Positions 40,919 to 45,830 of a stretch of 48,955 bases of DNA are shown here, one piece after another; the first letter of the stretch is position 1, and each line of letters begins with the position of its first letter. A program made the position numbers and the translations under genes. The notes under the pieces are model-generated. The model ran no database searches, had not been told where the DNA came from, and worked only from the letters and a program-made list of their open reading frames with translations. Source of the stretch: Spirochaetota bacterium. GTDB taxonomy: Bacteria; Spirochaetota; Spirochaetia; Treponematales; UBA12059. The stretch covers positions 1-48,955 of the forward strand of contig JAPLSN010000025.1 in assembly GCA_026398615.1 (NCBI GenBank), given 5' to 3'.

Positions 40919-42043
40919 ATGAACGACGACGCTCCGGGAAAACCCATGACCTCGGACGAACTGGCGTCCTTCCGAGAAACCATCTTCTCGTCGGAATCGC
41001 CGGAGGCGGCGTTCGGCGGGCTGGAGGGCTCCACGCGCGACGAGCGGCTGGAATCGCTGCGGCGCAGGTACCTCGAGCTCATCGCCCGCTGCCATCCGGA
41101 CAAGCATGAAGCCGCGGGCGCGGAAGCCCTGCGCTGCGCGTCGGAGATCGCCTCGCGGCTCGGGGAGCTGCGAGCGAAGGCGGCCGACCGGATCGAAACC
41201 GGGACGTACGGCGATGCGGGCGGCGGCGCGTCCGGTTTCGAAATCCGCACGAAAAAGTCGTTGTACCTGGTCACACGCAAATTCATGGAAACCGACTGGT
41301 CGGAGCTCTATTCGGCCCGTGAGCTCCTCGAGGGGCTGCCCGCGGGCCGCGTGGTGCTCAAGATAGCCAGGTCCGAAGGCGACGAGGACCTCTTCAGGAA
41401 CGAAGCCCGCGCGCTCTCGTTGGCGCAGCACAAGTCGCTGCCGGTCTGCCGTGAGGCATTCCGCACGACGGACAAGCGCTACGGGCTCGCGCTCGACGAG
41501 ATCGACGGCCTTGACCTGCGCGAGATCCTGAAGCGGAAGCCGGGCGGCGTCCCCCAGGACCATGTCGCCTGGATTTTCGAGCGCCTGCTGTCGGTCATCG
41601 GCTTCATCCATTCCAGGGGCATCGTGCACGGGAACATCGAGCCGGGCAACATCATGGTCAGGGGGCGCGACCACAACGCCTTTCTCATCGACTTCCTTTT
41701 CGCCGCGCTGGACCCGGCGCGTACGGGGGACGGGTTCAAGGCCGCGACGCCGCCCTACAGTCCCCCGGAAGTCTACGAAAAGAAGCCCCCGGTACCGGCG
41801 TCGGACCTCTACGCGCTCGCGAAGAGCATGATCTTCCTGCTCGGGGGAGACCCCGTGCGCGACGAGCTTCCGGCCGGGGTCGACGCGCGGCTGGGCCGGT
41901 ACCTGAAATCGTTCCTCTTCCCCAACCCCGCGCACCGGCCGCGCGACGCATGGGAGGAGCATGGCCGCCTGGAGCGGCTCCGGGACGGGATATTCGGGAC
42001 GAAGCGTCCGTTCGAGGAACCTGATTTTTCGCCGGCGCTCTGA
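40919..42043 (+). CDS. J-domain fused to a Ser/Thr kinase-like domain, probable pseudokinase
   Basis: 374 residues. Residues about 15-95 look like a DnaJ J-domain with the HPD tripeptide at 59-61 (LELIARCHPDKH), which would stimulate an Hsp70. From about 115 a protein-kinase fold follows. The ATP-site Lys148 (VVLKIA), the helix-C Glu162 and the Asp of the DFG position (D258 in LIDFLF) are kept. The catalytic loop, however, reads HGNIEPGN (237-244) instead of HRDxKxxN, so the catalytic Asp is Asn and its partner Lys is Glu. PPYSPPEVY stands for the APE motif. It is therefore likely an ATP-binding scaffold. It is 60 bp upstream of the vWA/DUF2135 gene and begins a four-gene run. Confidence 0.8.
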   Translation: MNDDAPGKPMTSDELASFRETIFSSESPEAAFGGLEGSTRDERLESLRRRYLELIARCHPDKHEAAGAEALRCASEIASRLGELRAKAADRIETGTYGDAGGGASGFEIRTKKSLYLVTRKFMETDWSELYSARELLEGLPAGRVVLKIARSEGDEDLFRNEARALSLAQHKSLPVCREAFRTTDKRYGLALDEIDGLDLREILKRKPGGVPQDHVAWIFERLLSVIGFIHSRGIVHGNIEPGNIMVRGRDHNAFLIDFLFAALDPARTGDGFKAATPPYSPPEVYEKKPPVPASDLYALAKSMIFLLGGDPVRDELPAGVDARLGRYLKSFLFPNPAHRPRDAWEEHGRLERLRDGIFGTKRPFEEPDFSPAL

Positions 42044-42103
42044 CGCATCGCTCGATGCCGTGCGGATACGCGGACGGCAAGAAATGACGACGGGGAGGGA
42101 ATC

Positions 42104-43531
42104 ATGGGCGGAGGATACTACGACCGCGACGTGGGGAGCGGGGGGTCGGGCGAGGGCTTCGACTACCAGGCGTACTCGGCGACCGCCGACCAGGCCATGT
42201 CCAGGCGGGAGATCCACCCGGATCTGGCACCGGCAGGGCGCATCCTGTCCACGCGCGCGAAGAACCCCATCGTTGTGGCCATGGACGTCACGCGATCCCG
42301 GGGCAACGATTCCAAGATCGTCTACGACAAGATGCCGATGCTCTATGGCCAGATCATGCTCCAGGGCTACCTCGCGGACCCCGCGATCAGCTTCGCGGCC
42401 ATCGGCGACGCGACGAGCGGCGACCGCGCCCCCCTCCAGGTGGCCGACTTCGCCTCGGGCGACGGGCTGGACGGCTGGCTCACGAAGATCTGGCTCGAGG
42501 AGGGCGGCGGCGGCACGGGCCGGGAGTCCTACGAGCTGGCCGCGTATTTCTACGCGCGCAACTGCGTGCTGCCTGCGGATGCGAAGGGGATCTTCTTCAT
42601 AACGGGGGACGAGGGTTTCTACCCGGAAGCGGCGGGTGATCAGGTCGCGCGGCTCATCGGGGCGCCCGATTCGTCCGTCGACGCGAAGGTGCTGTTCCGC
42701 GAGCTGCGCTCGAAATTCCGGGTCTTCTTCATCTACCCGAAGAAGGCCGAAGGGGAGCGCAGGGCCGACATTGACGCGGAGATCGCGGAGCGGCTGAAGC
42801 GGGAGGGCGGCAAGTCGGGCGACGTGCGCGCGTCGCTCGTCTGGAACGACCGCAACGACCTGGACCTCCACGTGATCTGCCCGTCGGGCGAGGAGATCTT
42901 CTACGCGCACAAGAACTCGGCCTGCGGCGGCGAACTAGACGTGGATATGAACGTCCACGGGGAATCCATGAAGCCCGTGGAGAACGTCTACTGGGCGACG
43001 GGCGGGGCGCCGGTCGGGCATTACCGGGTGTTCGTGCGGAACTACGCGTTCCACATGCCGGACCGGTCCCCGACGCCCTTCAGGGTGGAATTGTCGGTGA
43101 ACGGGAAGGTGCAGCACTTCGAGGGCGTCGCCCGCGGCGACGGCCCGGTTTCCGACGTGCCCTGTTTTGAATTCGATTACACGGGTCGCAGCGCGGAGCG
43201 GGAGACCGAGCGGTACTCGGGGTACGCGGACGAAGCCATCCTGGCGCAGTGGCGGGAGGTGCTGCCCGAATCGGACATCCTCGTCCTCGACGAGCCCAAG
43301 GGCATCGTCGACGCCATGCTCGGCGCCATCGCGCTGGCGTCCGAGACGCGGGACCTGGACGAGTACCTCGTGGACATGCGCAAGCGTGGCCAGACCGACG
43401 GCCGCATCGACGAAATCAGGCGGACGCTCCTGCCCCTGGCCGGGAGCTCCGCCGTCGTGAAGGTGGACATGGGGGGAAAGCTGCCGGACAAGAACGTGGA
43501 AAAGCGCGAGTCGGGGACGAAAAGGCTCTGA
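42104..43531 (+). CDS. vWA-like domain plus DUF2135 (YfaP-type) domain protein
   Basis: 475 residues, no signal peptide. A Gly/Tyr-rich head (1-50) precedes a vWA-like domain (about 55-230) with a MIDAS-like DVTRS (61-65, DxTxS instead of DxSxS). About 242-345 resembles DUF2135: 'SLVWNDRNDLDLHVICPSGEEI', 'GELDVDMNVHG', 'VENVYWATGGAPVGHYRVFVRNY'. A helical C-terminus follows. ATG follows GGGAGGGA. DUF2135 proteins are often secreted, so a cytoplasmic version next to a kinase-like gene is notable. Only 2 bp separate it from the next gene. Binding to the pseudokinase is a guess from context. Confidence 0.78.
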   Translation: MGGGYYDRDVGSGGSGEGFDYQAYSATADQAMSRREIHPDLAPAGRILSTRAKNPIVVAMDVTRSRGNDSKIVYDKMPMLYGQIMLQGYLADPAISFAAIGDATSGDRAPLQVADFASGDGLDGWLTKIWLEEGGGGTGRESYELAAYFYARNCVLPADAKGIFFITGDEGFYPEAAGDQVARLIGAPDSSVDAKVLFRELRSKFRVFFIYPKKAEGERRADIDAEIAERLKREGGKSGDVRASLVWNDRNDLDLHVICPSGEEIFYAHKNSACGGELDVDMNVHGESMKPVENVYWATGGAPVGHYRVFVRNYAFHMPDRSPTPFRVELSVNGKVQHFEGVARGDGPVSDVPCFEFDYTGRSAERETERYSGYADEAILAQWREVLPESDILVLDEPKGIVDAMLGAIALASETRDLDEYLVDMRKRGQTDGRIDEIRRTLLPLAGSSAVVKVDMGGKLPDKNVEKRESGTKRL

Positions 43532-43533
43532 AG

Positions 43534-44442
43534 ATGCTGATAGCCACCGTCGCCCCCTACGTGCCCCACCTGGCGAGGATGTGCGCGCACCCGTCCGTCG
43601 GGGGTCTGCGCTTCAACACGATCATGCCGATCGCGGAGGACGAGGAGACGGTGTTGCGGAAGCTCCTCGACGCGTCGGCGGGCAAGCCCCTGTGGGTGGA
43701 CCTGAAGACCAGGCAGCTCCGGGTGACGCAGTTCGCCTACCTGCCCTACGCCTTCGTGCAGCTGTCGCGCCGCATCGCCTGCGAACTGCCGGCGACGGTG
43801 CTCTTCAAGGACGGCGCGTCGGAGATCGTGCGGATCGTCGACGGGGACAAGCTCATCCTCTCGCACAGGCCCGCGCGCGTCGTGGGCGCCGGGGAGCCGG
43901 TCAACGTGCCCGATCCCTCGCTCCGGATAGAAGGCTTCCTCACCGAATCCGACCTGCGCTACGTCCGCGCGGCGACGAAGCTCGGGGTCCACCGTTTCCT
44001 CCTGTCCTTCACCGAGTCGGCGGACGACGTGCGCGCCCTCCTGGAGCTCGATCCCGGGGCCGAGGTGGTTGCCAAGATCGAGTCGCTCCGGGGCCTCGGG
44101 TTCGCCAGGTCGTACGGAGGCGAATTCGGGGGGAAACTGCGCTTCATGGCCGCGCGCGACGACCTCCTCGTCAACATGGGAACCGACCGCTTCGGCATCG
44201 TCGACGCGCTCGCGGACATCCTGGCGAAAGACCCTTCCGCGATCGCCGCGTCGCGCATCCTCACCTCGCTCGAAGACGACGGGGAGCCCGCGATGGGTGA
44301 CATCGCCGACCTCTTCCTCCTTGCGCGCCTGGGTTACCGGAACTTCATGCTGAGCGACGGGCTCTGCTTTTCCGAATCGTCCTTCGACCGCGCCGTGCGC
44401 GCCTTTTCGGAGTTCGAGCGGCGGATCGGTCCAGGCGCGTGA
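43534..44442 (+). CDS. Stand-alone pyruvate-kinase-like TIM barrel protein
   Basis: 302 residues, beginning MLIATVAPYVPHLARM. Several pyruvate kinase landmarks can be followed in order: R26-x-N28 (LRFN for ARLNFSH), 'LWVDLKTRQLRV' (for DTKGPEIR), 'EPVNVPDPSLRIEGFLTESDLRYV' (for the KGVNLPG...LTEKD block), 'RFLLSFTESADDV', AKIES (K181, E183), and 'FMAARDDLLVNMG' (for MVARGDLGVE). The C-terminal regulatory domain is missing, and the B domain is very short. The PEP/metal site thus seems kept while substrate access differs. It might catalyse phosphotransfer to something other than ADP, or an enolate-type reaction. It overlaps the next gene by 4 bases. Confidence 0.75.
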   Translation: MLIATVAPYVPHLARMCAHPSVGGLRFNTIMPIAEDEETVLRKLLDASAGKPLWVDLKTRQLRVTQFAYLPYAFVQLSRRIACELPATVLFKDGASEIVRIVDGDKLILSHRPARVVGAGEPVNVPDPSLRIEGFLTESDLRYVRAATKLGVHRFLLSFTESADDVRALLELDPGAEVVAKIESLRGLGFARSYGGEFGGKLRFMAARDDLLVNMGTDRFGIVDALADILAKDPSAIAASRILTSLEDDGEPAMGDIADLFLLARLGYRNFMLSDGLCFSESSFDRAVRAFSEFERRIGPGA

Positions 44443-45830
44443 AACGGCGGGTGGTCGTCGTCGTTGGCCTGGGCTTCGGCGACGAGGGGAAGGGCGCCGC
44501 CTGCGACTTCCTCGCGCGCACGCGGGGAATCCGCGTCGCGGTCCGGTTTTCAGGCGGCGCCCAGGCGGCTCACCACGTCGTGCTGCCCGACGGACGCTTC
44601 CACCGCTTCAGCCAGTTCGGTTCCGTCATGCTGGTTCCGGGCACGGCGACCCTGCTGGGGCCCGGTGTCCTCGTGGAGCCCCTCGCCCTGCTCCGCGAAG
44701 CCCGCGCCCTCGCCGCCCTCGGCGTCGCGGCGCCGGAGCGGAGGATCTCCGTCGACGGGGACTGCGTCATCGTCACGCCCTTCCACAGGGCGCTCGGGCG
44801 GGTGAAGGAAATCCTGCGGGGGCCGGGACGATACGGTTCCACGGGGATGGGGATCGGCGAGGCCGCGGCCGACCGGGACGCCGGGAAGGAAGGGCTCCCG
44901 CGCTTCCGGGATCTGTACGACGGACCCGCCCTCTTGGGCAAGCTGCGAAGGCTCCGCGACGGCGCGATCGCGGAAGCGTCCCGCGCCATCGGCTCCTCGT
45001 CCGCGGGCGGGGAAGCCGTCGCCGGGGCCGGACGGATCGCCGGGGAGCTTGCGGGAAGCGCCGTGCTCCAGGACCTCGCCGACGGGTACGCGCACGCGCG
45101 CGCCAGGCTCGATGGCGCGTTGGTCGACATCGATCGGGCCCTCCCGTCCCTCGCGCGCGGGGGGGCCGGGATCGTGTTCGAGGGGTCGCAGGGGCTGCTC
45201 CTCGATCCCGGGCTCGGGTTCCCCCCGCACGTCACCAGGACCGATTCCACCGCGGCGCTCGCGCTGGAACTCGCCGCGCGCCTGCTTCCCGGCGACGACG
45301 CGGCCGTGATCGGATGCCTGCGGACCTACGCGCACCGGCACGGCCCGGGACCGCTCCCGACGGAGGATCCCGCCCTCGCGTCGTCCCTCCCCGAACCCCA
45401 CAACACCGACGCCCGGTGGCAGGGTCCCTTCCGCGTCGGCGTCTTCGACCTCGTGCTTTCGCGCTACGCGGTCCGGGCGATCCGGCCCGACGCGATCGTG
45501 CTCTCCCACCTCGACCGCGTCGCATCCTGCGGACTGTCCCGGGCAGTGCGCGGCTATCTCGTCGACGACGGAAGCTCCGTTCCGGCCGGGCTTGAATCCC
45601 TCGACGATGCCCCGCTCCGCGCGGGCGAGGTGATGTCGGGCTTCCTCCTTCGCTGCAAGCCGGGAGCGTTCGCAGATTTCCTTCCCGTTACGGATGGCAT
45701 CGCTCCAGGCGATGCGGACGAAAACTTCACCCGCGGCGCCGAGGAGGCGCTCGGCGTCCCGGTGGCGATCACGGCGAACGGCCCGACCTGGCTCGACCGC
45801 GCCTGGCGCCGTCCGGAAATTCCGGCTTGA
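44439..45830 (+). CDS. Divergent adenylosuccinate-synthetase-like (PurA-fold) enzyme
   Basis: 463 residues, GTG start in a GTGA overlap. The PurA frame is clear: GLGFGDEGKGAACDFL with catalytic Asp15, FSGGAQAAHHVV with His45, 'GSTGMGIGEAAADRD', FEGSQGLLLDPGLG, 'TYAHRHGPGPLPTE', 'VFDLVLSRYAVR', and SHLD where GTP-binding TKLD is normal. The aspartate-recognition loop TTGRxRR of true PurA is replaced by NTDARWQGPFR, and the Arg of TTGRGIG is Met. So IMP-like phosphorylation chemistry could remain while the amine donor may differ. Coupling to the pyruvate-kinase-like gene suggests a special nucleotide product. It could still be this organism's housekeeping PurA, though the loop argues against it. 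Confidence 0.8.
   Translation: MKRRVVVVVGLGFGDEGKGAACDFLARTRGIRVAVRFSGGAQAAHHVVLPDGRFHRFSQFGSVMLVPGTATLLGPGVLVEPLALLREARALAALGVAAPERRISVDGDCVIVTPFHRALGRVKEILRGPGRYGSTGMGIGEAAADRDAGKEGLPRFRDLYDGPALLGKLRRLRDGAIAEASRAIGSSSAGGEAVAGAGRIAGELAGSAVLQDLADGYAHARARLDGALVDIDRALPSLARGGAGIVFEGSQGLLLDPGLGFPPHVTRTDSTAALALELAARLLPGDDAAVIGCLRTYAHRHGPGPLPTEDPALASSLPEPHNTDARWQGPFRVGVFDLVLSRYAVRAIRPDAIVLSHLDRVASCGLSRAVRGYLVDDGSSVPAGLESLDDAPLRAGEVMSGFLLRCKPGAFADFLPVTDGIAPGDADENFTRGAEEALGVPVAITANGPTWLDRAWRRPEIPA

Follow-up and report, generated by a model that had tools for sequence, protein, structure and literature searches.

A vWA gene cassette shared by phages and bacteria that carries PurA-like and pyruvate-kinase-like enzymes

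Adenylosuccinate synthetase (PurA) has a well-described phage relative in PurZ. In phage PurZ, position 13 is always Ser (PMC12884076). The same study counts 481 viral PF00709 proteins and places 151 sequences in the PurZ group, so viral PurA homologues outside PurZ are already known; the available passages give them no function. In other contexts, vWA proteins are described with kinases and metabolite-making enzymes in the Ter stress systems, and in a chaperone-linked MoxR-vWA pair in jumbo phages. Here we describe four genes on the forward strand of a 48,955-nucleotide stretch from a Spirochaetota bacterium (assembly GCA_026398615.1, contig JAPLSN010000025.1; the whole stretch is referred to below as the window), which encode a J-domain pseudokinase, a vWA protein, a pyruvate-kinase-like barrel and a PurA-like enzyme. 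The four genes are a conserved cassette common to phages and bacteria, and not a chance row.

A cassette common to phages and bacteria

More than 110 loci, viral and bacterial, share one gene order: first a J-domain (pseudo)kinase or, in its stead, a small coiled protein, next a vWA protein, and last a PurA-like enzyme, a pyruvate-kinase-like enzyme or both. When viral contigs were scanned with gene 4, the PurA-like gene, 80 loci came up, which with three isolate phages, one phage-database contig, an Armatimonadetes metagenome-assembled genome (MAG; locus L013) and the window make 86 PurA-like loci. In 81 of them the PurA-like gene has a vWA gene upstream, and in the remaining five that side is cut by the contig end. 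Homologues of the J-domain kinase are found in 32 of the 86 loci and a coiled protein of ~120 amino acids in 35, the two together in none; whichever is present sits upstream of the vWA gene or, at certain loci, on the downstream side of the PurA-like one. The coiled protein (L061:3767-4105 and 34 other viral loci) has a conserved DLSP...SDFD motif and no Pfam match. Among isolates, Mycobacterium phage I3 has a kinase (gene 270), a vWA protein (271) and an enzyme annotated as ‘PurA-like’ (273), and Rhizobium phage RHph_TM2_3B and Vibrio phage VB_VaC_TDDLMA are also carriers. About 190 mycobacteriophage records carry the cassette family, and huge phages are among its hosts. The cassette is at least as much phage as bacterial, a side of it that a first-pass annotation, made from the window alone, had not seen.

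On the bacterial side, whole genomes were searched with nothing but the vWA family, which turned up in 11 of 393 genomes from the window’s phylum, in 19 of 400 from the phylum to which a Chloroflexi MAG belongs and in 9 of 149 from that of the Armatimonadetes MAG, so that about 3-6% of the genomes sampled in each of the three phyla have it. A further 37 bacterial loci, not counting the window and two MAG contigs known beforehand, were fetched through their vWA genes. A PurA-like or pyruvate-kinase-like gene adjoins vWA in 35 of the 36 whose downstream side is visible; L120 is unjudgeable at its contig end, and L144, with a partial vWA gene at a contig end, is without either enzyme. Cassettes with only the pyruvate-kinase-like enzyme occur in the window’s phylum (L125, L126), in those of the Chloroflexi (L142, L143) and Armatimonadetes (L152-L154) MAGs, and on large viral contigs (L115-L117). 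Both enzymes are seen in one cassette in the window and in L013, which makes the window a rare case of the two-enzyme form. The four genes had been put forward as a candidate undescribed system; its genes are indeed conserved together, usually with only one of the enzymes.

The cassette is described in no open-access text that we searched, a search that did not cover the 2012 Ter paper or the subscription literature. No PADLOC 2.0 family model matches genes 2-4, and gene 1 is matched only through its kinase domain; we therefore rejected the PADLOC defence systems as an identity for the cassette.

The PurA-like enzyme

Gene 4 (44439..45830, + strand; 463 aa, GTG start) was assigned from Pfam and its motifs. 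It matches Pfam Adenylsucc_synt at 1.7e-54, but lies below both NCBIfam PurA cut-offs (153.6 bits versus 402 for PRK01117, 134.8 versus 395 for TIGR00184) and scores 49.3 bits against the PurZ cut-off of 300. We mapped E. coli PurA numbering onto the family through PDB entry 1ade. Four positions, those of D13, the P-loop-like K16, H41 and Q224, do not vary among 105 PurA-like proteins, guanine-binding D333 is mostly kept, and Asp13 is also retained in nine other sequences, which have GDSGKG or GDASKG. In the window copy the conserved motifs are GFGDEGKG (44472-44495), GGAQAAHH with the His41 equivalent (44553-44576), EGSQG (45180-45194) and HRHGPG (45333-45350), all on the + strand.

The substrate pocket is another matter. 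Of the residues that contact the phosphate of inosine monophosphate (IMP) in PurA, T239 is kept in 101 of the 105 proteins, N38 is replaced by Gln in 103, and R143 is lost. The aspartate-binding loop, T301-x-R303-x-R305, is replaced in gene 4 by RWQGPFR (45414-45434, +), and across the family T301 has become Gln (103/105), R303 falls in a gap in every member and R305 is Phe in 87 of 105; V273 is His in all 105. In E. coli PurA, R303 makes contact with aspartate as well as with O2' of IMP (PMC8342488). We hold with moderate confidence that this enzyme would perform GTP-dependent activation of a 6-oxopurine nucleotide, with a donor other than aspartate.

Because Ser13 is universal in phage PurZ (PMC12884076) and Asp13 is invariant here, the family is not PurZ, and PurZ was rejected as an identity for gene 4 on this residue and on the sub-cut-off score. 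Duplication of PurA was rejected as well, on the pocket residues, the low scores and the separate canonical PurA that the host encodes on a different contig of its genome (3.38 Mb, 99% complete). In a tree of the PurA-like proteins the window copy stands beside L121, from the same phylum, with support of 0.73; the deeper branches lack resolution, so the tree does not tell whether the gene moved from phage to bacterium or the other way. Phage records and PHROGs (PHROG 1211) name the enzyme ‘2-aminooxy adenylosuccinate synthetase’, an apparent corruption of ‘2-amino adenylosuccinate synthetase’ (PurZ) and a misleading label here.

Partner proteins and neighbouring genes

In the window the cassette consists of four intact, co-directional open reading frames on the + strand, separated by a 60-bp gap, a 2-bp gap and then a 4-base overlap; these spacings and the gene positions are as first annotated. 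Gene 1 (40919..42043, +; 374 aa) was assigned from Pfam, its HPD motif and a structure model. Its kinase domain matches Pfam Pkinase at 8.6e-16, and the model (predicted local distance difference test, pLDDT, 91.8) has a kinase fold that matches PknB-type kinases. The beta-3 Lys (41354-41362, +) and the DFG-type Asp (41690-41698, +) are present, but HGN replaces HRD (41627-41635, +), so that the catalytic Asp expected of an active Ser/Thr kinase is Asn. The N-terminal J-domain has its HPD motif (41093-41101, +); the Pfam DnaJ match of the window copy is only 0.042, below cut-off, and DnaJ is matched in 7 of 24 relatives, at best at 2.2e-25. The original reading of this protein as a J-domain pseudokinase holds.

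Across the family, 42 of 59 kinase homologues retain HPD, among them viral proteins in which nothing is left of the kinase motifs. The HRD Asp is found in none of 52 kinase homologues from cassettes with only the PurA-like enzyme (one of them truncated), nor in the window, and in four of five from cassettes with only the pyruvate-kinase-like enzyme, L152 being the exception; neither these counts nor that of HPD are phylogenetically independent. The simplest inference is that Hsp70 recruitment would be the more persistent function, and that phosphorylation may have mattered only in the pyruvate-kinase-like version. The cassettes make a natural series, in which kinase catalysis disappears where another enzyme has entered the operon and the J-domain is usually kept.

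Gene 2 (42104..43531, +; 475 aa) was recognised from a fold match and from conservation, since it belongs to no Pfam family: it has zero Pfam matches even at an E value of 1, and 29 of 30 scanned members of its family are likewise without one. The model of gene 2 aligns with the integrin beta-I domain, a vWA fold, over 188 residues (Z score 15.6, root-mean-square deviation 2.9 Å). A DxTxS motif of the DxSxS type, which forms the metal-ion-dependent adhesion site (DVTRS in gene 2, 42284-42298, +), and a GDE motif (42605-42613, +) are near-invariant across the family, as a vWA protein should have them. The earlier label of vWA/DUF2135 is borne out in its first half by the fold match, while DUF2135 is unconfirmed by Pfam. 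An insert at residues ~223-359 (42770..43180, +), identified by homology to phage proteins, interrupts the fold; it is beta-rich, modelled with low confidence, and 46-48% identical to part of proteins of Bacillus phage SP-15 (SP15_131) and Brevibacillus phage Sundance (phrog_1735). Most vWA proteins of the phage cassettes lack the insert. The vWA protein of the Chloroflexi MAG (L014) carries a C-terminal zinc ribbon; after the vWA-pyruvate-kinase-like pair of this MAG (L014:2103-3611) comes an apparent NAD synthetase gene, identified by sequence only.

Gene 3 (43534..44442, +; 302 aa), assigned from a profile match and its catalytic residues, is a pyruvate kinase barrel alone, without the C domain. 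It falls below both the Pfam cut-off (8e-6, 25.5 bits versus 30) and that of NCBIfam pyruvate kinase (35.4 versus 432), and its family profile matches solved pyruvate kinases at 2.7e-14. The catalytic set R73, N75, D113, K270, E272 and D296, in rabbit pyruvate kinase numbering, corresponds to R26, N28, D56, K181, E183 and D210 of gene 3 and is invariant in 13 of 13 pyruvate-kinase-like proteins. Both enzymes had been thought to differ from their relatives at substrate-facing sites; this is so for the PurA-like enzyme, with its changed pocket, but the pyruvate-kinase-like enzyme keeps its catalytic set and shows no clear difference. No pyruvate-kinase-like gene was found in 79 genomes of the host’s close relatives, where weak matches resemble ordinary pyruvate kinases, and a plasmid search gave only the canonical enzyme. 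A match at L015 was rejected as a chance resemblance in an unrelated protein.

The window cassette lies among ordinary chromosomal genes. Downstream are a GH1 glycosidase and an ABC-F-like ATPase; upstream, on the opposite strand, Kelch-type and beta-barrel-like proteins; and farther off an HD-domain protein, a histidine kinase, an AMP-binding enzyme and leucyl-tRNA synthetase. No neighbour of the bacterial cassettes recurs outside small related groups. On the viral side, a gene for an R2K-clade ATP-grasp protein follows the PurA-like gene in 12 loci of one viral lineage (for example L066:6131-6970), and in eight loci of this ATP-grasp-bearing group a HAD_SAK_2 gene precedes the kinase. The ATP-grasp absence noted from the window does not extend to the family, given these dozen or so related viral contigs. 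In a second viral group NAMPT adjoins the cassette in eight loci and an NrtR-type NUDIX regulator in nine; the two were seen near the cassette in L019, L023, L032, L036, L059, L068, L071 and L073, and a link to phage NAD+ supply or to counter-defence is possible. In Rhizobium phage RHph_TM2_3B (L157:4519-6034) a HAD-type hydrolase, so named by its annotation, overlaps a PRTase_3 gene, of a Ter-type family; the two lie upstream of the vWA-PurA-like pair, ~5 kb from the PurA-like gene. Together the viral neighbours suggest a nucleotide-metabolism or conflict region, without defining the function.

Function and comparison with known systems

The reading that we tentatively favour, though we would place it somewhat short of probable, is that the cassette encodes a GTP-driven enzyme adding an amine other than aspartate to a purine nucleotide, handled by a complex of the J-domain pseudokinase and the vWA protein, with a role in conflict or stress. 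The PurA-like enzyme would use GTP to activate a 6-oxopurine nucleotide at its C6 oxygen, as PurA does, and would then take its different amine donor to give an N6-substituted purine nucleotide. The pyruvate-kinase-like enzyme, which may replace or complement it, would carry out enolpyruvate or phosphoryl-transfer chemistry. The vWA protein could serve as a metal-dependent scaffold that holds the enzyme and its partners, and the pseudokinase could bring host Hsp70 (DnaK) to the complex for assembly, opening or disassembly. The product would most likely serve phage-host conflict or stress, as a signal, a decoy or a modified nucleotide, and not bulk adenine synthesis; the cassette may plausibly both make and sense a modified nucleotide. 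Our confidence is low for the physical handling by vWA and DnaK and for the phage-host conflict role. A fuller version, a phage and bacterial pathway that places a non-aspartate amine at C6 of a purine nucleotide, borrows DnaK through the pseudokinase-vWA complex and acts in phage-host conflict, is possible but doubtful. If it is true, conflict uses could include re-aminating inosine nucleotides produced by deaminase-based defences, or providing a signal or decoy.

Several observations weigh against this reading. The altered loop could bind aspartate in some other way. The conflict role is drawn only from phage carriage and from the NAMPT, NrtR-type NUDIX and ATP-grasp neighbours, which would be equally expected in nucleotide-metabolism regions, and the bacterial copies lie amid ordinary chromosomal genes, in no recognised defence island. 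Many of the homologues are also phylogenetically related, and the locus counts are not independent events.

Of the alternatives, the one that survives best is a role in chaperoning or in virion or complex assembly, in which the pseudokinase and vWA protein would be DnaK co-chaperones and both enzymes nucleotide-gated structural or sensor parts that make no metabolite. The J motif that persists where kinase catalysis is erased fits such a role, as do the vWA fold, which binds peptides and proteins, and the MoxR-vWA co-chaperone pair of jumbo phages, itself proposed to act in assembly (PMC7824862). However, the catalytic residues of both enzymes are invariant across very divergent sequences, which a structural role does not need, and bacterial chromosomes carry the cassette with no phage genes around it; we consider assembly unlikely. 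Base modification of the PurZ kind, in which a modified deoxy-purine monophosphate enters phage DNA and gives nuclease resistance, is what the phage PurA paralogue PurZ does (PMC8342488, PMC12884076), and the common carriage of the cassette by large phages and the PurZ-type function suggested by the PHROG name would agree with it. This we find decidedly unlikely, since the signature Asp13-to-Ser change is absent and the Asp invariant, the NCBIfam PurZ score is 49 against a cut-off of 300, chromosomal copies in bacteria would then modify host DNA, and the kinase, vWA and pyruvate-kinase-like proteins would be left unexplained. It is very improbable that the cassette simply supplies extra adenylosuccinate synthetase and pyruvate kinase to boost purines and ATP in phage or fast growth: homology to both enzymes is clear and their catalytic residues are retained, but the aspartate and phosphate pockets are rebuilt in all relatives, every curated PurA and pyruvate kinase NCBIfam cut-off is missed by far, the genome already encodes PurA, and the fixed coupling to vWA and pseudokinase has no place in it. 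A branch of the Ter systems, with the PurA-like and pyruvate-kinase-like enzymes replacing the usual metabolite module of phosphoribosyltransferase (PRTase), HAD, ATP-grasp and TIM-barrel proteins, is just as improbable: the logic of vWA, kinase and metabolite enzymes is common to both and the Rhizobium phage and R2K ATP-grasp loci bring Ter-like genes near, but TerD is in none of 17 carrier genomes, and of 20 genomes or records only 2 have PRTase_3, the bacterial case more than 8 Mb from the cassette.

Present in jumbo phages, in nearly 200 sequenced mycobacteriophage records and in several bacterial phyla, and with no described role, the cassette points to unexplored purine chemistry. With so sharp a family signature, and with carriers among the Mycobacterium smegmatis phages used in laboratories, the substrate, product and role are directly testable.

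Within the open-access literature, Pfam and the defence models that we searched, the cassette matches no known kind. Gene 3 shares the barrel and catalytic residues of pyruvate kinase (PF00224), but is a single domain with no C domain, scores below cut-off and is coupled to vWA. With PurA (PF00709, TIGR00184) gene 4 shares the fold, the GTP-binding and catalytic residues D13, K16, H41 and Q224 and, for the most part, D333; its family differs in the replacement of T301, R303, R305, N38 and R143, in the invariant His at V273, in scores far under the curated cut-offs and in the vWA gene that adjoins it wherever that side is visible. PurZ and PurZ0 of Z-DNA phages are likewise phage-borne PurA paralogues with an altered pocket, but the present family keeps Asp13, scores below the PurZ cut-off and has bacterial chromosomal copies too. 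The ‘PurA-like adenylosuccinate synthetase’ of cluster C mycobacteriophages (PHROG 1211) belongs to the same family as gene 4 and is annotated alone, yet in I3 the kinase and vWA genes (270, 271) lie just upstream of gene 273; unlike the window, I3 has a small gene, 272, between the vWA and PurA-like genes and no pyruvate-kinase-like gene. Ter stress systems also bring vWA, kinase and metabolite-making enzymes together, and the likeness to them that was first proposed stands as shared logic and is kept as an analogy, but membership was rejected on TerD, which, as first noted, is absent, both from the 17 carrier genomes and from scans of the window cassette and its flanks. The enzymes are also of other families and the partner is a J-domain pseudokinase. 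Of the usual Ter metabolite module, ATP-grasp and HAD genes stand beside the cassette in one viral lineage only, and PRTase_3 has the two occurrences given above. The MoxR-vWA pair of jumbo phages (PMC7824862) resembles the cassette in joining a phage vWA protein to a chaperone-linked partner; the cassette has no MoxR ATPase or metallopeptidase, and has instead a J-domain pseudokinase and a PurA-like enzyme.

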